A stretch of DNA of 64,000 nt from Sorex araneus (Eukaryota > Chordata > Mammalia > Eulipotyphla > Soricidae), in contig NC_073305.1 of the NCBI RefSeq assembly GCF_027595985.1, positions 171,396,672 to 171,460,671 of the forward strand. The letters are read 5' to 3'. The position numbers and the translations under genes are program-made. Position 1 is the stretch's first letter; each line of letters opens with the position of its first letter. Positions 2,187 through 39,260 of the stretch are shown one piece after another. The notes beneath the pieces are model-generated. The model worked only from the letters and a program-made list of their open reading frames with translations, did not search any database and was not told the origin of the DNA.

Positions 2187-2445
2187 AGCACTGTAGCACT
2201 GTCGTATCACTGTCATTTGTTGTTCATTGATTTACTAGACCAGGCACCAATAACGTCTCCATTGTCAGACTTGTTGTTACTGTTTTTGGCATATCAAATA
2301 TGCCATGGGTAGCTTGCCAGGCTCTGCCATGCGGGTGGGATACTCTTGGTAGCTTGCCGGGCTCTCCAAGAGGGGTGGAAGGATCGAACCTGGGTTGGCC
2401 ATGTGCAAGGCAAATGCTCTATCCACTGTGCTATCGCTTCAGTCC
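2187..2445 (-). mobile_element. tRNA-derived SINE, CAGTG-tailed type
   Basis: Full-length reverse copy: starts with 'tagcactgtagcactgtcg', passes through 'gttactgtttttggcatat', and ends with the complement of the tRNA-like head (gtgctatcgcttcagtcc). Confidence 0.88.
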
Positions 2446-3185
2446 ATAGATATTATAAATAATGCTTTAATGAAATCTATTGTTGAAATGTTTGAAACTG
2501 TTTTCATTCTTTTGTGTCTATATCCAACTGTGGAATTGCTAAGTAATACATTTGTACTTTTAATTTGTTCTAGGAATCTTCATGTTATTTTTCAGTTTCT
2601 GCACCATTCCACAATCCCACCACATTCCTACCAGCAGTACACAAAAGTTCTCTTGGTGAAGTGCAATGTGTGAGGTGACATCTCACAGTGATTTTAATCA
2701 GCATATCCCTGGTTACTAATGTCTTATGTTTCTTAAAATCTTTTATGTCAATTTTTTAAAAATCATTTCTTTCTGATCACAGGTTTCTTTGGTATGATTC
2801 AACCCTTTAAAATTTATTTAGACTCGTTATTTTCCAGCATATGGTCTTTCCTGAAGAAATACCATGTCCCATGTGTAACTGAGGAGATTTTATTTCTGCT
2901 TTTGGACGCAAGAAACGTATGTTTTGTTAGTTGGTTTGCAGTGTTGTTCAAGTCTCCTGGTTCTTTCTAAGTTGGCCCAATTGCTCTAACCCTTATAGAA
3001 AGTAGGGAGTTAAAACTATCCAGTGATTATTATTGAGTATATGTTCAGTCCTTCAATTCTGTTGTTGCTTCATGGTTTTGGGGACTCTTGTCTATTTATG
3101 TTTATAATTGATTATATCTTTAGATAGTCACCCCTTTATCAGTATGGAATGTTTCACTCTTTAGTAATATTTTTTTATTTAAAAT
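2446..3185 (-). mobile_element. Old L1 ORF2 fragments
   Basis: The reverse strand carries decayed L1 ORF2 text. 2560-2740 matches the conserved C-terminal stretch ('ccacaatcccaccacattcc' on the plus strand), and 2790-3185 resembles the mid-ORF2 stretch of ancient L1 copies. No open frame survives. Confidence 0.6.
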
Positions 3186-3235
3186 TTTTTCTGCTTGCTA
3201 TTAAAAATAATTATCCCTGGATAGACAGGTGAAGA

Positions 3236-4630
3236 TTCCACTGAGTATCAGATTGCACCTGTAGACCCCAGAGGGCTCTGGACTGAGTCAACCCAGCTTC
3301 TTCTTCCCTCCAGAAGTGGGAGCAGAAAGCCCCCAGGGTCTGGCAGTCTCCTCCCATTGTTCTAGGCCAGCATTTTCCTTAGGCAAGTCTGTGAGGGGGA
3401 GGATGTTTGTCTTGGGTTGCCTCCCACCTGCCCTTCCTTCTGGTTTCTCCATTACAGCCGCTTCCCATCCACTGCCCAGGGCACTGAAGACCAGCTCGGA
3501 AACAACTGAGGACATTCATGAGTCTCCCTCCCTCCTCCCTGTTCGAGTTGCAGCCCTGCAGGCTTATTTCCTGATGCCCACCAGGCTAGACCTGGCTCTT
3601 GCACTAGCTTCCTGTTGCTCAGCTGCTGAGTTCATCCTCCTGAGACGTCCATTCTCTGTGCCAGTGCCGGGCAATCTTCTGCCCATCTGGTACATTGTTA
3701 CTCCAATCTCGAAGAATCTGTTCCCCAAAGCATAAAGACCGAACTTCTTGGCCAGGTGTTCAAGTTCTCCCACCTTTCTCATCCTCTCAGCTGTTGCCTC
3801 TGAGAAACTCCTTATGCCTCAAAGTGTTACATTAAGGACACAGCAGGTGCTTTGCTAAGGACAAAAGTCTTCAACAGGGCAGGTGTCAGCCTTCAACTTC
3901 CTGGATGCGATCCCAACACAGATTGCACAGAGATCAACCAAGCTGTAAGTTCGAGGAGGGCACAGCAGCTCAGCTAGGACAGCCCCAGAGCCCGTGTCCT
4001 GGCTGCATCCCCCTCTCCCTACCTCCTCTCTCTTCGGGGTCTCTTGAGAGACTGTGACTCCATCTTGACTGTTGGGTATGGGCGAGGTGGAAATTGGGAC
4101 TCCCCTTTCCGGTAGTTCCACCTTTCTCCTTATGGGAGATCACATCAACTCGCCTCAACTTGGTGAGCTTGAGCTTGTTTTCATGAGAAATCACACGTCT
4201 CTCACAACCACCGTGACTCCAACAAATTTCCCATCTCACAAACTCAGGCCAGTTTTTGCATGGTGTTGAGACTCAGGGAACTGCCTGGTTCCTTCATTCC
4301 AGGACAGATGGGTGTTTAATCTGGAGGCTGGAGTAAACAGCCTGGCCCATTTGTTTTTTTTTTTCCTATGCTTGATGTATTCTGGTCCCCCTTTGGTGTA
4401 CCAACTCCTTTCAAGGTGCTGGCAAAACAATGGCAATCCATAATCTCAACCATCATGGAAGTTCCATCCTCCAGTGGGAGATATTAAGAATGACACAAAA
4501 GTTAAACGACATGGGTGCCATAAAGGAGAGACACACAGAGTTTGCTATTCCCGGGACTTCCGGAGATGGAGCTGGCACACCTTTGGCACAGCTAGGCTGG
4601 GGGGATGCTGGGGGCCCTGCTTTCTTATGA
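3236..4630. other. Repeat-poor 5' flank of the GLYCAM1-like gene
   Basis: No SINE, L1 or microsatellite is recognisable over about 1.4 kb, in contrast to the rest of the window. Short open frames here (for example 3316-3735) have no recognisable domains or codon-level support. The lack of insertions fits a regulatory flank, but I identify no individual element except the STAT-like site and the core promoter listed separately. Confidence 0.5.
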
Positions 4631-4636
4631 ACTGGT

Positions 4637-4645
4637 TTCCCAGAA
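4637..4645 (+). promoter_or_regulatory. STAT5-type palindrome TTCCCAGAA
   Basis: A perfect TTCNNNGAA palindrome about 150 bp upstream of the inferred transcription start. Milk-protein promoters use such sites for prolactin/STAT5 control, and GLYCAM1 is a lactation-induced mammary product in other mammals. One 9-bp match is weak evidence alone. Confidence 0.35.
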
Positions 4646-4716
4646 TGTTCAGTTCCCCCAAAGAGACATTTTCAGAACAGGAAACTTGGGAGGAGAAACC
4701 TGGAACGCTCCCAGGT

Positions 4717-4768
4717 CCAATCACGAGTCAGGTTTCTCTGAGCCCACCCCATCCCCAAATAGATAAAA
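4717..4768 (+). promoter_or_regulatory. Core promoter: CCAAT box and TATA-like box
   Basis: CCAAT lies at 4717-4721 and ATAAAA at 4763-4768. This spacing predicts transcription starting near 4793-4799 and a 5' UTR of about 40-45 nt before the ATG at 4839. The spacing is typical of small, strongly expressed secreted-protein genes. Confidence 0.6.
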
Positions 4769-4838
4769 CCTCATCGCAGCTGCATCTTCAGCCACACTAA
4801 GCAGCACCCTGGAAAGCAGATCCTGCTCCAGCTCCATC

Positions 4839-6974
4839 ATGCGGCTCTTCATCGTCCTGCTGCTGGCCAGCCTGGCCTCCTCCTCTCCCATCTCTAGGGA
4901 GGAGACACAAAAACAAATCCACCTGGAGGCTCGTCACACAGATGCCACCCCAGCTGCTCCAGTTGCCAGCACCCGCCACCCTAGCGAACACACTGACAAG
5001 AAGCAAGTCTCCAGCGAGGATGCTCTGACCAAGTCTCCCATCTCCAATGAAGAGCCTGCTTCCAAAGAAGATGCTGCGATCAAATCTATCAAGAAACCAA
5101 AGAATTCTGAGGCTGAGCTGGTTTCTAGCAAGGCTGACCTGCAGAAGGCTGACCACCTGAAGGCTTCCACAGAGGCTGACCTCCAGAAGGCTGACACTCA
5201 GAAGGCTTCCAGAGAGGCTGACCTCCAGAAGGCTGACACTCAGAAGGCTTCCAGAGAGGCTGACTTCCAGAAGGCTGACACTCAGAAGGCTTCCAGAGAG
5301 GCTGACTTCCAGAAGGCTGACACTCAGAAGACTTCCACAGAGGCTGACCTCCAGAAGGCTGACACTCAGAAGGCTTCCAGAGAGGCTGACTTCCAGAAGG
5401 CTGACACTCAGAAGGCTTCCAGAGAGGCTGACCTCCAGAAGGCTGACACTCAGAAGGCTTCCAGAGAGGCTGACCTCCAGAAGGCTGACACTCAGAATGC
5501 TTCCAGAGAGGCTGACCTCCAGAAGGCTGACACTCAGAAGGCTTCCAGAGAGGCTGACTTCCAGAAGGCTGACACTCAGAAGGCTTCCAGAGAGGCTGAC
5601 CTCCAGAAGGCTGACACTCAGAAGGCTTCCAGAGAGGCTGACCTCCAGAAGGCTGACACTCAGAAGGCTTCCAGAGAGGCTGACCTCCAGGAGGCTGACA
5701 CTCAGACTTCCAGAGAGGCTGACTTCCAGAAGGCTGACACTCAGAAGGCTTCCAGAGAGGCTGACCTCCAGAAGACTGACACTCAGAAGGCTTCCAGAAA
5801 GGCTGACCTCCAGAAGGCTTCCAGTGAGGCTGACTTCCAAAAGGCTGATCCTCAGATGACTTCCACAGAGGCTGACTTCCAGAAGGCTGACCCTCAGAAG
5901 GCTTCCCGAGAGGCTGACCTCCAGAAGACTGACACTCAGAAGGCTTCCAGAAAGGCTGACCACCTGAGGACTTCCGCCGAGGCTGATCTCCAGAAGGTTT
6001 CCATTGCGGCTGACCTCCAGACGGCTTCCAACAAGGCTTACTCCCAGAAGGCTTCCAATGAGGCTGAATCACAGAAGGCTTCCAACAAGGCTGATTCCCA
6101 GATGGCTTCCAACAAGGCTGACTCCCAGAAGGCTTCCAATGAGGCTGACTCCCAGAAGGCTTCCAACGAGGCTGACTCCCAGAAGGCTTCCAACGAGGCT
6201 GACCACCAGAAGGCTTCCAACGAGGCTGACCTCCAGGTTTCCAGTGAGACTGAATCCCAGAAGGCTTCCAACAAGGCTGATCACCAGGTAGAGGCTGACT
6301 CCCAGAAGACTTCCAATAAGGCTGACCACCAGAAGGCTTCCAATGAGGCTGACTCCCAGAAGGCTTCCAAGGAGGCTGACTCCCAGAAGGCTTCCAACAA
6401 GGCTGACTCCCAGAAGGCTTCCAAGGAGGCTGACCACCAGAAGGCTTCCAACGAGGCTGACCTCCAGGTTTCCAGTGAGGCTGACTCCCAGAAGGCTTCC
6501 AGCAAGGCTGTCCACCAGAAGGTTTCTAGCAAGGCTGATTCCCAGAAGGCTTCCAGTGAGGTTGATACCCAAGTTTCCGGTGAGGCTGATCTCCAGAAGA
6601 CTTCCAGCGAGGCTGACTCTCAGAAGACTTCCAGCGAGGCTGAGTCTCAGAAGGCTTCCAGAAAGGCTAACTTCCAGAAGGCTTCCATCAGGGCTGTCCA
6701 CCAGACGGTTTCTAGAGAGGCTGACTTCCAGAAGTTCTCCAGTGAGTCTGACCTCCAGACATCTAGTGAAGCTGATCTCCAGAAGGTTTCCAGCAAAGCT
6801 AATCTCCATCTAGAAGAGAGTGAAGAACATGTCCCAGAGACCACAGCCGTCTCCGAGGAAAAACTGACCCAGTTTGGCCAGAAAATCAAGAAGGATCTGA
6901 AGCAAGTGTTGAAAAAGTACATTGACACTGTGAGCAAATTCTCCCCTTCTGCTGCTGTAGCTGCAAGGCCCTGA
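4839..6974 (+). CDS. GLYCAM1: GLYCAM1/lactophorin-like secreted protein with giant S-x-E repeat array
   Basis: An uninterrupted 711-codon frame. Residues 1-19 are a signal peptide (hydrophobic FIVLLLASLA core). Residues 20-95 follow the GLYCAM1/PP3 amino terminus: IHLEARHTDA, then SSEDALTKSPIS and SKEDAAIKS. Residues 96-657 are tandem repeats. Residues 658-711 resemble the family carboxyl end (SEEHVPETTAVSEEKL), with a lysine-rich amphipathic helix at about 675-701. GLYCAM1 is a secreted mucin-like glyco-phosphoprotein of milk and, in rodents, a lymph-node L-selectin ligand; usual length is about 150 residues. I see no cysteine. The bovine N-glycosylation site near the C-terminus is not preserved, but one N-A-S sequon occurs at residue 220. 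The ATG has A at -3. The four-exon layout of known GLYCAM1 genes is absent: N-terminus, array and C-terminus are co-linear in one frame. Family assignment is by recalled similarity, and a closely related member of the secreted cluster is the main alternative. Confidence 0.85.
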   Translation: MRLFIVLLLASLASSSPISREETQKQIHLEARHTDATPAAPVASTRHPSEHTDKKQVSSEDALTKSPISNEEPASKEDAAIKSIKKPKNSEAELVSSKADLQKADHLKASTEADLQKADTQKASREADLQKADTQKASREADFQKADTQKASREADFQKADTQKTSTEADLQKADTQKASREADFQKADTQKASREADLQKADTQKASREADLQKADTQNASREADLQKADTQKASREADFQKADTQKASREADLQKADTQKASREADLQKADTQKASREADLQEADTQTSREADFQKADTQKASREADLQKTDTQKASRKADLQKASSEADFQKADPQMTSTEADFQKADPQKASREADLQKTDTQKASRKADHLRTSAEADLQKVSIAADLQTASNKAYSQKASNEAESQKASNKADSQMASNKADSQKASNEADSQKASNEADSQKASNEADHQKASNEADLQVSSETESQKASNKADHQVEADSQKTSNKADHQKASNEADSQKASKEADSQKASNKADSQKASKEADHQKASNEADLQVSSEADSQKASSKAVHQKVSSKADSQKASSEVDTQVSGEADLQKTSSEADSQKTSSEAESQKASRKANFQKASIRAVHQTVSREADFQKFSSESDLQTSSEADLQKVSSKANLHLEESEEHVPETTAVSEEKLTQFGQKIKKDLKQVLKKYIDTVSKFSPSAAVAARP
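5124..5945 (+). repeat. 42-bp coding tandem array (14-residue units)
   Basis: Residues 96-369 resolve into 18 full units of consensus SREADLQKADTQKA, one 13-residue variant (at the QEADTQT unit) and one 9-residue unit. Units are near-identical at DNA level, with substitutions scattered and mostly single (Leu/Phe in ADLQ/ADFQ, Lys/Asn, Ala/Thr). This points to recent homogenisation by unequal exchange or slippage. All length changes are multiples of three. Confidence 0.95.
5946..6809 (+). repeat. 27-bp coding tandem array (9-residue units)
   Basis: From residue 370 there are 32 complete units of consensus SNEADSQKA plus a last partial unit (SSKANLH). They are more divergent than the 14-residue block, and several are shortened by one or two residues (for example ADLQV, ADHQV). 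The 14-residue unit reads as this 9-residue unit plus a five-residue partial copy (DTQKA), so the 27-bp unit is probably ancestral. Confidence 0.93.
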
Positions 6975-7099
6975 AAAGAGCCTTCTCACAGCCCAGCTAG
7001 GGCCAGGGGAGGCATCTACAGAACCTACCCTCTGTCCACCCTACCCACCCGTCTCAGCCCCCCTCCCAATTCCTTAAAGTGCTGCATCCTGAAAAAAAT

Positions 7100-7110
7100 A
7101 ATAAAATAAA
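7100..7110 (+). terminator. Two overlapping AATAAA polyadenylation signals
   Basis: AATAAA at 7100-7105 and 7105-7110, about 130 nt after the stop codon at 6972-6974. They give the gene a short 3' UTR typical of GLYCAM1-like transcripts. The surrounding A-rich stretch (7091-7118) could alternatively be the relic of a retrocopy poly(A) tail. Confidence 0.7.
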
Positions 7111-7350
7111 GTAAAATGAATTAATGATACCAGATGTTTGATTTGATTTTTTAAAAAAGGAATACTCTAGCCTAGAAGCAATGTAGAAATAAAGGCAATA
7201 TATGTATGTCAAACAAGTGGTAAAGAAAGAAAAGGCAAAATGAAACATACTCTCAGCAAATACAATGCTTTCAACAAAAAAGAAAGTAAAAGACAGAAAT
7301 GAATATACTGTAATGATAAAGGGGTCAATGTGCCAAAAAGCCATAACATT

Positions 7351-7353
<3 letters not shown>

Positions 7354-7385
<32 letters not shown>
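7354..7385. repeat. (CA)n microsatellite
   Basis: About 16 CA dinucleotides, followed by TA-rich sequence. Confidence 0.95.
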
Positions 7386-7387
<2 letters not shown>

Positions 7388-7444
7388 ATATATAGTTAAC
7401 ATAGGTATACCAAAAAATAAGGTAAATATTAATATTTCTATTTT

Positions 7445-7615
7445 TGGGGGGGGTTGGTTTGGGTTATGCCCTGCAATAAACAGGGATTACTCCTGGCTCT
7501 GCATGCAGAAATCACTCCTGGCAGTGCTTGGGGAACCATATGGGATACTGCGGATCAAACTCTGGCTGGCAATATGCAAGGAAACGCCCTGCCTGCTGTA
7601 CTATGGCTGCAACCT
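7445..7615 (-). mobile_element. tRNA-derived SINE, A-tailed type, diverged
   Basis: Recognisable blocks 'ggattactcctggctctgca' and 'gaaccatatgggatac'; the head is degraded. Confidence 0.75.
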
Positions 7616-7619
7616 TCTA

Positions 7620-8146
7620 AAGGGTAGAACATATAACAATAAAATAATAGGGAGTGTATGTGTGTGAGTGTGTGTGTTTATGTGTAGTTCCAAGGATTAT
7701 ACCAGGGACACATATATACAAATCAAGTATTTTGCTACTGAATTACATCCCAAGCTCAATAGTAGGGGAATTAAACAACTCACAACAATGTATGAATAAT
7801 CTAGAGAGAAATTATGTTAAAAAATTCAATGACTTTAAGTGCCATAAATAACAAATTGAATGTAATAAACATGTAGAATATATAACAGGATGTATATACA
7901 CACATATATACTTGAAAACAGAAGAACAGATACATTATCAAGTGCCATATAACATTCTCAAGGATAGACCATATGTTGGGATACAAAAAAAGACAGAACT
8001 TTTATAAAAATTGAAATCATAATATGCATTTTAAAAATCACAATCACAAAACTAGACATGAAAGCTGAAAGAAATGCAAATAGTTTTATAGTGTCATATG
8101 TCATTATTAAAAAGGCAGTATGCCAATTGTGAAGAGATATTTGTGA
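7620..8146 (+). mobile_element. Old L1 ORF2 fragment, left of the insertion
   Basis: Text at about 7940-8080 ('aggatagaccatatgttggg', then 'ttgaaatcataatatgcatt') is the L1 ORF2 segment after the reverse transcriptase. It continues at 8719, so a later element split it. Frames are broken. Confidence 0.6.
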
Positions 8147-8157
8147 CTATTATATAT

Positions 8158-8707
8158 TACCGTATAACGGTCGTCCCATTGCTCATCGATTTGCTTGAGC
8201 TGGTGCCAGTAGTGTCTCCATTTGTCCCTGTCATGTTCGGGGTCAGGGGAATGCGGCTCATTATTGTTACTGTTTTTGGCATATAGAATACACCACAGCT
8301 AGCTTGCCATGCTCTACCATGCGAAATTCTGCGTTGTTCTCATCCAGGAGCTTTGTTTTATAGTCTCTGGACCTTGGCTGTTGATGAGATTACATGGCAC
8401 CAGGGCTATTTGTGGGTGTGGTTGCTACACTATTGGAAAATGGGGTATCTGGGTGGAAGAAGCTTTAGTCCTGATCCGAGCAGGCTTGGAGATCTCAGCC
8501 ACGGGTCCCGCATACCTGGGGTCCTCGGTCAGTTCCTTCATGCGTGAGGCTCGTCCGAGCATGTAGAGAGTGGTCCTGAGCATGACTATGGCTGGGTTCT
8601 GGAGGTTTTTGGCTGCCGGGGCTTTGCTTGGGGAGGGGAGGGTGACTTAACCTGCCCCTCTCCGAGGGGGCCCTGGTGAAGACAGCCTGATGCGGGGATA
8701 GGAGGTT
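8158..8707 (-). mobile_element. Chimeric retroposon: tandem-repeat module plus SINE 3' end, TSD-flanked
   Basis: Flanked by a perfect 11-bp TSD, CTATTATATAT, at 8147-8157 and 8708-8718. Read on the minus strand, a GC-rich 5' module (sharing blocks with 30967-31750) leads into the body of the CAGTG-tailed SINE. It has no tRNA head and no poly(A). Relative to the 784-bp copy it lacks about 150 bp internally. Confidence 0.8.
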
Positions 8708-8718
8708 CTATTATATAT

Positions 8719-9660
8719 AATCAGAAGTTAATATCCAAAACTTATAAATAAAATATCCAAAACATAAATCTTATAAAAATCAATCAGAACCAAAAACCTG
8801 ATTAAAAAGTGCACAGGAGATCTGCTTAGACAATTCTCTGAGGAAGAGGTACAGACATCCAAGAAAAACATGAAAAGGTGTTACAGTTTGCTCATAATTA
8901 AGGAAATCTAGGCTAAAATCACAAAGGGATATATTCTAACATATGTTGGGATGGATTTTATTCAAAAGATAAGAAACACTAAATGTTAGTAAGTAGGAAA
9001 AGTAAAGAGAAACTGTGTACACTTGTTGGGAATGTAAATTTGTGTAATTAGTATGAAAAATAGTATGGAGATTTTTTCAATAAATTAGGACTATAATTCC
9101 ATATGATCCAGCTGTCTAAATGCTGGTATTTATCAGAAGAATATAAAGCACCAATTCAAAATGATGTATGCATCCCTTGTTCACTGCAGCATTGTTCGCA
9201 CTAGCTAAGGGTGGGAAACAATCTAAGAATCAATGGATGGGTGAATAAAGAAGAGTGCTTTATAAATATTAATATGTATGTAATGTAATATTAGTCATCT
9301 TGCCTGATATTATGGATGCACCTAGAAGGTATTATGCTAAATGAAATAAGGAAGACATAATACATATGGCATAATTTCATTCAAGTTGGAAGAGAAATGA
9401 ATCAAGAAGCAAAGCAAAACAAAAAACTCAACCGATAAGTAAAAATAATGAGGAAATGTGGGAATATAAAAAATGGGAAGGAAGGTGAATAAATTGTATA
9501 AATGAATTCAATTGGATGGTGAAAAATGGAAATGATTCTTTGGTAATGAGCATAATGTAGTTAGTGTAAGCAAATGGTTAAGTCTGTACATTTGAAACTT
9601 ATAAATGTTATAAGTTAAGGCTACTTTAATAACAAAGTATAAATCTAACTGTGGAAGCTT
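8719..9660 (+). mobile_element. Old L1, ORF2 C-terminal part
   Basis: Continuation of the copy ending at 8146. Typical decayed ORF2 C-terminal text includes 'caatggatgggtgaataaag' and 'atgctaaatgaaataagg' (the region of the conserved MLSE motif). No long frame remains. Confidence 0.7.
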
Positions 9661-10887: not shown

Positions 10888-11730
<843 letters not shown>

Positions 11731-25302: not shown

Positions 25303-25475
25303 ATTTTTTTCTTTTGGGTCATACCCGGTGATGCACAGGGGTTACTCCTGGCTCTGCACTCAGGAGTTACTCATGGCAGTGCTCAGGGTAACGATATGGG
25401 ATGCTGGGAATCAAACCCAGGTCAGCCGCGTGCAAGACAAATGCCCTACCTGCTGGGCTATCGCTCCAGCCCTCG
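25303..25475 (-). mobile_element. tRNA-derived SINE, A-tailed type
   Basis: Full reverse copy ending 'gctatcgctccagccc'. 'agaagcaagaattttttt' before and 'gaagcaagaattgttttaa' after give an imperfect TSD (GAAGCAAGAATT). Confidence 0.95.
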
Positions 25476-28179: not shown

Positions 28180-28664
28180 ACTTCTACCAAGAGCTGCTTC
28201 TTTGGAAATATTAACATCAATAAACCACTTGAAAGACTCATAGAGAGTGATAGAGAGAGCACCCAAATAAACCAAACAGGAAACGACAGGGGCTATCACA
28301 ACAGATAACATAGAAATTCAAAGGCATCATCCGAAATTATTATAAGAAACTTTATGCCATGAAACAAGGGAACCTTGAAGAAATAGATACATTACTACAT
28401 TCATATAACCTCCCAAGACTCAACCAAGAAGATTTGGAATACCTGAACAGACCTTTCAGTATTGAGAAAATTGAAATGGTAATCAAAAGTCTTCCCCAAA
28501 ACAAAAGCCTAGGCTCAGACGGACTCACTAGTGAATTCTTTCAAACCTTTAAAGAGGATCTACTGCCAATCCTTGTCAAGCTTTTCCAGAAATTGAAAAA
28601 CAGAAACATTCCCAAGCAGTTTCTATGAGGCAAATATCACCTTAATACCAAAAGCAGACAGACA

Positions 28665-36326: not shown

Positions 36327-38150
36327 TTTTAATTTTTTAAATTTTATTGAATCACTGTGAGATAGTTACACACTTTCATGTTTGGTTTACAATCTCACAA
36401 TGATCAAACACCCATCCCTCCACCAGTGCACATTCCCCACCACCAATATCCCGGGTATACTCCCCCTTTCTCACCCTCCCCTTGCCTCTAAGGCGGACAA
36501 TATTCCCCATACTCTCTCTCTTCTTTTGGGCATTATAGCTTGCAACACAGACACTGAGAAGTCATCATGTTTGGTCTATTATCTACTTTAGGCATGCATC
36601 TCCCATCCCAACTGGTTCCTCCAGCCATCATTTTCTTAGTGATCCCTTCTCTATTCCATCTGCCTTCTCCCCTCCACCCATGAAGCAGTCTTCCAGCTAT
36701 GGAGCAATCCCCCTGGCCCTTGTATCTACGGTCCTTAGGTGTCAGCCTCATGTGATACTACCCTACTATCCACAAATGAGTGCAGTCCCTCAATGTCTGT
36801 CCCTCTCTTTCTGACTCATTTCACTTAGCATGATACTCTCCATGTTTATCCATTTATGAGCAAATTTCATGACTTCATCTCTCCTAACAGCTGCATAGTA
36901 TTCCACTGTGTAGATGTACCAAAGTTTCTTTAACCAGTCATCTGTTTTAGGGCACTTGGGTTGTTTCCATATTTTGGCTATTGTGAACAGTGCTGCAATG
37001 AATATATAGGTACAGATGTCATTACTACGATGCTCTTTTTCATCCTTGGATATATTTTCAGAAGTGTTATTGCGGGGTCATGTGGAAGCTCAATTTCTAG
37101 TTTTTGAAGGACTGTCCATATTGTTTTCCAGAAAGGCTGGACCAGTCGGTATTCCCACCAACAGTGAAGGAGTATCCCTTTTTCCCCACATCCACACCAG
37201 CACTGGTTGTTTTTGTTCTTTTGAATGTGTGCCAGGCTCTGTGGTGTGAGATGATATCTCATTTTTGTTTTTATTTGCATCTCCCTGATGACTAGTGATG
37301 TGGAGCATTTTTTCATGTGCCTTTGGACCATTTGTATTTCTTTTTTGAGGAAACTTCTGTTCATTTCTTCTCCCCATTTTTTGATGGGGTTGGAGGTTTT
37401 TTCTTATACAATTCTACAAGTATCTTGTATATCTTGGGGGTTTATTGTTTTATATAAATTTTAGGAGTGTTTTGTCTATTTCTTTGAAAAATGTCATGGG
37501 TATCCTGATAGGGACTGGATTAAATTTGTATAGTGCTTTGGGCAGTATTGCCATTTTGATTATGTTAATTTTCCCTATCCATGAGCAGGGGATGTGTCTC
37601 CATTTCCTAGTGTCCTCCTTTATTTCTTGAAGTAGTGTTTTGTAATTTACCTTGTATAGATCCTTCACCTCTTTGGTTAAGCTGATTCCAAGGTACTTGA
37701 TCTTCTGAGGTACTATTGTGAATAGGATTGTTTTTTTAAAATCTCTTTCTTCTCTTTCATTATTTGTATATAATAAAGCCATGGACTTTTGGGTGTTGAT
37801 TTTGTAGTCTGCCACTTTACTATATCTACTTATTGTTTCTAGGAGCTTTTCTATAGAGTCTTTAGGGTTTTCCAAGTATAGTATCATATCATCTGCAAAT
37901 AGCGATAACTTGATCTCTTCCTTTCCTATCTGTATGCCCTTGATATCTTTTTCTTGTCTAACTGCTATGGCCAGGACTTCCAGTACCATATTGAATAGGA
38001 GTGGTGAAAGCCGGCAACCTTGCCTTGTGCCGGATCTTAGAGGGAAGGCTTTCAGTTTTTCCCCATTGAGAATGTTAATTGACGTGGGCTTTTGGTAGAT
38101 GGCTTTGATTATATTGAGGAAAGTTCCTTCAATGCCTCTCATATATATTA
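36327..38150 (-). mobile_element. 5'-truncated, internally deleted L1
   Basis: On the minus strand, 38142-37450 reads 230 codons of L1 ORF2 reverse transcriptase, including [19 protein letters not shown] and the catalytic [12 protein letters not shown]. 37364-36978 reads the C-terminal part ([39 protein letters not shown]). Between them the segment from 'KTLLKFI' to just before the C-terminal domain is missing. The 3' UTR continues to a poly(T) on the plus strand at about 36327. It is the best preserved RT segment in the window. Confidence 0.95.
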
Positions 38151-38154
38151 TTAC

Positions 38155-39260
38155 CTCAACTCTTCAAATAAGATGGGGCAGATATTTTCAATTCAAAAAT
38201 TTTAGGTAATGCAATTAAAAAGTTTGCCCAAGATATTGAACCAAGTAAGCAATAAATCCAAGGATGGGTTGCTATCTCTGGAAAGGCGCTCAGTACTCTT
38301 TTCAGATAAAAATGGGTTATTACAACCTGGGCAGAAGTGAATCTCACAATTGAAATGAGCAATGCTGTATGTATATCAAAGTTATATTCATAAATATTTT
38401 TCAACCAAAATTTTATCTGACCCACTAAGAAAATGATAGGAAATCCATTTAGTGAACAAATTTAATGAAATGAATAAATAATAAAATCATGAATCATAAT
38501 GAAAATGTACTAAGATAAATTTTTATTTAAAAGAAAATAATTATATAATTCAAAGAAATAACAGTGTCTTCAATAATTTTAGTGTGCTGTTGTCTGCTCC
38601 ATATAATTGTATGCTATGCATATGCCCAGAATATAATGGAACGATATGCCAGAAACTGTTTATACGAGCTCTTCCCAGGAGAGGTATAGAGTTTCTGGGG
38701 ATTGGGAGTATGAGAGAGAATTACTCTTCACAGTATATCAATTGGTACACATGGGGGTTGTACTGCTTACATTTTATCAAGATAAAAATGTACTTATATA
38801 AACACCTGCTCTATGAAAACATTTTTGCTAAGGGCTGCTTCCTGACCCTCGACAAATTAGGTTCCCTGTGAAATGTTCTTTCACGGGATACTATGAAAAT
38901 TTATTCATTATCTTGAAAATTTTCAAAAGCTTTGCGATAAGCTGATCAATATTGATAGTTTCCCATAATACTGTAAGTTCTAGAAGGTTCAACCATAACA
39001 ATTTTTAGCCTAAACTTCAGAAAAAGTTCTCTAAGACTTAAGAATGGGTGAAAGAACTTACTAGATATAGTTGCAGTTGAGCCTTCAAAGATTATCTGAT
39101 TTTCAAATGTTCTGCATTTTTAATTATCTTTTTATTGATGAAGCCACCTTAGGAATCTGCATGTGTGGAAGCTACAGAAAATGGAGACTTATGCAAATAA
39201 CTCATTTATAGTAATACAATGAATTGTCTAATATCTTTTGCCTTACTGAAAATCAACATC
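38155..39260. other. No recognised feature
   Basis: 1.1 kb AT-rich sequence; no repeats or gene signals that I can support. Confidence 0.4.

Follow-up and report, generated by a model that had tools for sequence, protein, structure and literature searches.

Within the 64,000 nucleotides of Sorex araneus DNA analysed here, referred to as the window, an open reading frame at 4839-6974 (+) comprises 711 codons and one terminal stop, and the greater part of it is a tandem repeat. The locus raises the question of which family such a protein belongs to, how the repeat came to be there, and whether the enlarged product is functional. The preliminary description had called it a GLYCAM1-like protein expanded to 711 residues, with about 560 residues of repeat in the middle; its coordinates are exact, and the repeat array counts 556 residues. 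The parts of the gene and its flanking signals are presented in Table 1. Cysteine is absent from every part of the 711-residue protein. Over the array, the minus strand also holds open frames at 4797-6068 (423 codons) and 5125-6525 (466 codons), which are put down to the composition of the repeat and not taken as genes.

Table 1. Positions in the window of the gene's parts and of the candidate signals around it.
Feature	Position	Strand	Basis
STAT5-type GAS site TTCCCAGAA	4637..4645	+	202 bp upstream of ATG; pattern match, putative function
TATA-like box GATAAAA	4762..4768	+	77 bp upstream of ATG; putative function
Signal peptide, residues 1-18	4839..4892	+	Alignment with Sorex, Smutsia and Phodopus GLYCAM1 starts; predicted cleavage point
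N-terminal GLYCAM1 domain with four S-x-E motifs	4893..5132	+	PF05242 positions 3-66, 32.6 bits, cut-off 25
Array part 1, mostly 14-codon units (5+9), consensus ADLQKADTQKASRE	5133..5954	+	
Array part 2, more diverged, mostly 9-codon units near ADSQKASNE	5955..6800	+	
C-terminal GLYCAM1 domain with lysine-rich amphipathic helix	6801..6971	+	PF05242 positions 81-132, 33.0 bits, cut-off 25
Stop codon	6972..6974	+	
Overlapping polyadenylation signals AATAAAATAAA, A-rich stretch	7100..7110	+	Putative use

Family membership was judged against the Pfam GLYCAM-1 profile (PF05242), which has a gathering cut-off of 25 bits. The first 98 residues alone yielded 32.6 bits (E 1.1e-7) and the last 57 alone 33.0 bits (E 7.9e-8), so that the GLYCAM1 likeness claimed earlier for both termini is borne out at each end separately; residues 1-103 and 651-711, joined without the array, yielded 67 bits (E 2.5e-18). 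The unmodified 711-residue protein has no Pfam match at E up to 1, i.e., a Pfam scan of it misses the GLYCAM1 membership. The array alone likewise has none at that limit, and its candidacy as a known repeat family was rejected. The parts follow one another as in GLYCAM1 (signal peptide, acidic S-x-E domain, C-terminal amphipathic helix), as judged from the alignment, the motifs, the hydrophobic moment and the model helix. The best hydrophobic moment at the C terminus is 0.669 (P = 0.0005 against 2000 shuffles), compared with 0.713 in the Sorex araneus protein P0002. Given these results, we scarcely doubt that the gene is a member of the GLYCAM1 family.

Relatives were sought in a protein set of about 5.8 billion sequences, with a search that needs shared five-residue words and by which absence is not provable. 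Of 183 candidates for the joined ends, two had E up to 0.001, P0002 and P0003; of 2920 candidates for a three-row profile, four had E up to 0.1, namely P0002, P0003, one Smutsia gigantea protein and one Phodopus roborovskii protein. The nearest relatives found are the GLYCAM1-like proteins P0002 (146 aa) and P0003 (S. fumeus, 144 aa), with which the alignment is colinear. The signal peptide, the N-terminal S-x-E domain and the amphipathic helix that are common to GLYCAM1/lactophorin/PP3 are all present in the same order, and so is the LEESEEH of the Sorex GLYCAM1-like proteins. The window gene is 55% identical to P0002 and 53% to P0003 when aligned columns are counted (46% and 43% as BLASTP figures), whereas these two are 82% identical to each other, which places the window gene well outside the pair, as a gene of a more distant species or a paralogue would be. 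Following the signal peptide, a stretch of about 19 residues is present in the window gene and largely in the Phodopus protein, yet missing from both Sorex proteins and from the Smutsia protein; to judge from this sequence pattern, exon boundaries may flank the stretch in the relatives.

The length of the protein sets it apart. Reported lengths are 141 to 164 residues for eutherian GLYCAM1 (PMC5054531) and 137 and 122 for camel splice forms (PMC5944991), in contrast with 711 in the window protein, whose 556-residue array sits in the linker. No long relative was found, as, of 444 candidates with lengths of 391-1244 residues, none reached E 0.001 against residues 1-105; the earlier statement that no comparable GLYCAM1 expansion is known agrees with the protein searches, in which none turned up. 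The literature search returned nothing on GLYCAM1 in shrew and, among the matches listed for GLYCAM1/lactophorin, no title on repeat expansion of the gene. When the window was searched by tblastn with P0002, P0003 and the gene's own ends, no second GLYCAM1 copy appeared, the best match outside the gene having E 0.043.

The array spans residues 99-654 (nt 5133-6800), is built on the repeat unit ADTQKASREADLQK, and divides into 71 segments: 45 with nine codons, 19 with five, five with eight, one with six, and one with ten, the last being the final segment at the array end. In part 1, five- and nine-codon segments mostly alternate to form 14-codon units, the exceptions being one 13-codon unit at 5679-5717 and a lone nine-codon unit at 5802-5828; in part 2, the nine-codon unit stands on its own. 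Among other rows, Tandem Repeats Finder reports periods of 42, 84 and 126 with scores of 1243, 1115 and 1331 for 5131-5961, and periods of 27 and 81 with scores of 619 and 766 for 5929-6808. The segments deviate from the nine-codon unit by 3, 9 or 12 bases, whole codons in all cases, and the earlier observation that every repeat length change is a multiple of three is thereby confirmed. Adjacent nine-codon units are more alike (0.864) than units more than 20 apart (0.787), which is the pattern expected of unequal exchange.

The insertion point lies between positions 66 and 81 of the PF05242 profile (profile gap 67-80). The last unit reads QKVSSKANL and is followed by HLEESEEH, where P0002 has a single copy of QKVFKKVDL followed by KLEESEEH; this correspondence suggests that the linker segment matching QKVFKKVDL may have been the seed of the array. 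We hold with high confidence that a GLYCAM1 linker was amplified in frame. A 27-bp piece of the linker that joins the acidic phosphorylation domain to the C-terminal helix would have been multiplied, and a 15-bp half-unit interleaved with it would have produced the 42-bp units of part 1; in the simplest history, as the alignment reads, part 1 was probably homogenised later.

The coding homology is uninterrupted from the ATG to the array and from the array to the stop. According to PMC5054531, the GLYCAM1 genes of the four species compared (mouse, cow, devil and koala) have four exons each, whereas the window gene has no recognisable intron. A crude matrix finds no acceptor-like site above 8 bits in 4700-7100; it finds eight donor-like sites above 5 bits, the best with 9.1 bits at 6580, inside the array. 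A hidden intron inside the array was rejected, given donor-like sites without any such acceptor, and so was the polypyrimidine tract near 4898 that ends in CTCTAG, which lies inside the signal-peptide coding and is under the threshold. The gene is thus likely to be without introns, a feature that, like the S-x-E motif in the repeat unit, goes beyond the preliminary description.

The surroundings were also surveyed. The gene stands at the 3' end of a GC-rich block (3201-7080, about 49-56%) that adjoins low GC on both sides (33% at 2401-3200, 31-39% at 7201-8400), and further stretches near 50% GC are found at 1-800 and 8401-8800. At 10889-11730 there is a (TTCT)n microsatellite of about 840 bp, in which the GC and AT skews are both -1.0 over 11201-11600, i.e., that part is all pyrimidine. 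A 237-codon frame at 37450-38163 (-) contains an RVT_1 reverse transcriptase domain (E 1.6e-18) and is a LINE-type fragment; 28467-28613 (+) presumably resembles L1 ORF2, and 28314-28625 matches no Pfam family. When ten further frames of 89 were compared with Pfam, one matched a reverse transcriptase and the others matched nothing or fell under the cut-off. Short interspersed repeat families, about 70-91% alike within the window, occur at 1226-1386, 1481-1718, 2179-2462 and many further places, and one copy overlaps an Rfam tRNA match at 25397-25467 (-), as in tRNA-derived SINEs.

The missing introns would be accounted for if the locus were a processed retrocopy, i.e., an old GLYCAM1 mRNA copy inserted at a site other than that of the native gene, which kept its frame, gained length in its linker and is now a retrogene or a decaying pseudogene. 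The 50 bp after 7075 contain 28 A, in keeping with such an origin, but the A-rich stretch at about 7090-7125 overlaps the polyadenylation signals and is ambiguous as a poly(A) tail. The 53-55% identity to the Sorex proteins, set against 82% between the two species, also points that way, as does the neighbourhood. The GLYCAM1 locus lies beside PPP1R1A. PMC5054531 places it in the LACRT-DCD-MUCL1 cluster, and tblastn of the window with human PPP1R1A, LACRT, DCD, MUCL1 and PDE1B gave best E-values of only 0.28, 1.5, 0.17, 0.68 and 1.2, which leaves synteny unconfirmed. However, a comparison of 4690-4840 with 7095-7200 revealed no target-site duplication, lengths of 10, 12 and 15 doing no better than 150 control pairs, and the longest exact match between 4601-4840 and 7081-7260 is 8 bp. 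Sequences that we take to be a TATA box and a GAS/STAT5 site, GATAAAA and TTCCCAGAA, occupy promoter-like places; among three TATA-like patterns sought in 3801-4840, GATAAAA is the only match, while TTCNNNGAA occurs 26 times in the window, so that, by a hand estimate, any 250 bp would contain one by chance about 1 time in 10. The DNA remains at about 50% GC for some 1.6 kb upstream of the ATG, 2463-4838 has no stretch matched elsewhere in the window, and the frame is intact. We lean towards a native gene that lost its introns and consider the retrocopy unlikely; in its retrogene form, it is compatible with the protein mechanism proposed below. An assembly artefact in the number of units was weighed as well: several of the 42-bp units in part 1 are identical and could not be placed by short reads, yet 42 different DNA sequences are represented among the 71 segments and part 2 shows ample divergence, which makes the long array real in kind and its exact length doubtful. 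We give the artefact very little credence.

Whether the frame has been kept by selection is a separate question. The preliminary description had drawn on the frame being intact over its length; the frame is intact indeed, yet as an argument for selection this was overstated. The five other frames over the array contain 1, 4, 5, 22 and 82 stops, and at each end one other frame is likewise stop-free. Given the few stops in some of the other frames, an open frame is fairly cheap here. Both ends being stop-free was reached by 6 of 5000 shuffles; when the 155 end codons were simulated under neutrality without indels, however, 24 to 56% of runs stayed stop-free at 74 to 90% identity. With stop-free ends in 24% of neutral runs and stop-free alternatives at both ends, the ends by themselves fall short of proving selection. 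Better evidence than the open frame comes from the length changes by whole codons.

Substitutions among the repeat units give no sign of purifying selection. The 45 nine-codon units present 7 synonymous and 27 non-synonymous distinct single-base variants and no stops, where 8.4 synonymous variants and 1.6 stops are expected at random (P = 0.11 for no stop); the 19 five-codon segments present 2 synonymous, 2 non-synonymous and no stops, where 1.1 synonymous and 0.24 stops are expected (P = 0.77). It is somewhat unlikely, in our estimation, that the expansion was neutral, with the ends doing the work and the array being slippage or unequal-exchange drift tolerated in a fast-evolving gene. Synonymous variants are not in excess, the lack of stops is not significant, and neighbouring units resemble each other more than distant ones, all of which is consistent with drift. 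Segment differences of 3, 9 and 12 bases that are always whole codons argue against it, as does a serine slot retained in 51 of the 52 units having it; in the 45 nine-codon units the serine is unchanged throughout, which by a hand estimate is not significant over nine columns. The C-terminal helix, about as amphipathic as that of P0002, also counts in favour. Selection on the array is weakly supported, whereas a functional protein has fair though not conclusive support.

The composition of the array bears on what the product would be. The mucin-like character proposed earlier finds no support: only 2 of the 556 residues are Pro, Ser+Thr+Pro amounts to 20.3%, the charge is high (92 K/R against 106 D/E), and there is 1 N-glycosylation sequon. 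The array was accordingly rejected as a mucin domain, since its composition does not have the richness in Pro, Thr and Ser that defines one. An array carrying dense O-glycans, as in coding-repeat mucins, could still draw on its roughly 20% of Ser+Thr and on its tandem coding repeats, a general route to mucins being known from PMC12776774, but we find it very unlikely. The likeness to that route lies in the history: in the mucinisation of proline-rich proteins described there (PMC12776774), a small secreted glandular protein likewise gained an in-frame tandem array between its ends. In contrast with the coding-repeat mucins, the unit here is charged, rich in Ala, Ser, Lys, Gln and Asp and nearly Pro-free, with S-x-E instead of dense Ser/Thr/Pro. 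MUC7 is reportedly another case of coding-repeat mucinisation.

The motif of the unit would suit phosphorylation instead. The 51 retained serines stand in 37 S-x-E, 12 S-x-K, one S-x-A and one S-x-R motifs, and the mature chain has 43 S-x-E motifs in all. The array's 37, against 6.0 in shuffles, were not counted as evidence, because many copies of one unit produce such an excess. S-x-E is the target of the secretory kinase Fam20C, as stated in PMC8348777. If all 43 motifs were phosphorylated, the computed net charge of the mature chain would go from -15 to about -101. Caseins and osteopontin are acidic secretory phosphoproteins with many S-x-E sites on a Cys-free secreted chain. The window protein shares both features with them, a comparison made from general knowledge; it differs in that its charge is nearly balanced before phosphorylation, and sequence kinship, gauged by Pfam only, returned no such family. 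Phosphorylation may be the main role of the array, a reading suggested by the motif that we hold tentatively and rate slightly below even.

An AlphaFold model built on a five-row alignment has a mean pLDDT of 63.6 and a pTM of 0.24, with 243 of 711 residues under 50. It places long helices at residues 100-327, 352-476, 495-555 and 598-636 and a C-terminal helix at residues 673-701; for most of the stretch 111-320 the block means lie between 69 and 90. Ala-rich repeats tend to be modelled as long helices, and the modelled helices are therefore no proof of a rod; as far as the model goes, the array may be either a helical rod or a disordered chain. Three weak matches of the five-row profile to solved structures (E 0.077, 0.08 and 0.28) were judged to be chance.

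Taken together, we slightly favour the explanation that in-frame amplification of its linker turned a GLYCAM1 into a secreted, phosphorylatable polyampholyte that kept its C-terminal amphipathic helix. Its own TATA box would drive transcription, presumably under prolactin/STAT5 control; the protein would be secreted, and Fam20C would phosphorylate many of the 43 S-x-E sites. A near-neutral polyampholyte would thereby become strongly acidic and could act as a long hydrophilic spacer or a calcium-binding stalk. Bovine PP3/lactophorin is described in PMC8038340 as a phosphoglycoprotein, and its C-terminal peptide as one that enters lipid bilayers; as in lactophorin, the cationic C-terminal helix may still bind lipid or bacterial membranes. 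On the sequence as it stands, we think it probable that the gene encodes a functional secreted protein. A bolder and rather doubtful version is that, in a lineage of shrews, an intron-less GLYCAM1 became a casein- or osteopontin-like phosphopolymer, with dozens of Fam20C sites on a helical or disordered stalk and a membrane-binding helix, i.e., a new mineral- or membrane-binding milk or saliva protein whose length would vary between individuals.

If the favoured explanation is true, the gene is a clear example of a small milk or mucosal protein enlarged about five times through the in-frame multiplication of a single linker segment. Given that the unit suits phosphorylation and not O-glycans, the coding-repeat route to new secreted proteins would be widened beyond mucins, and in this one gene intron loss may be connected with the acquisition of a coding array.
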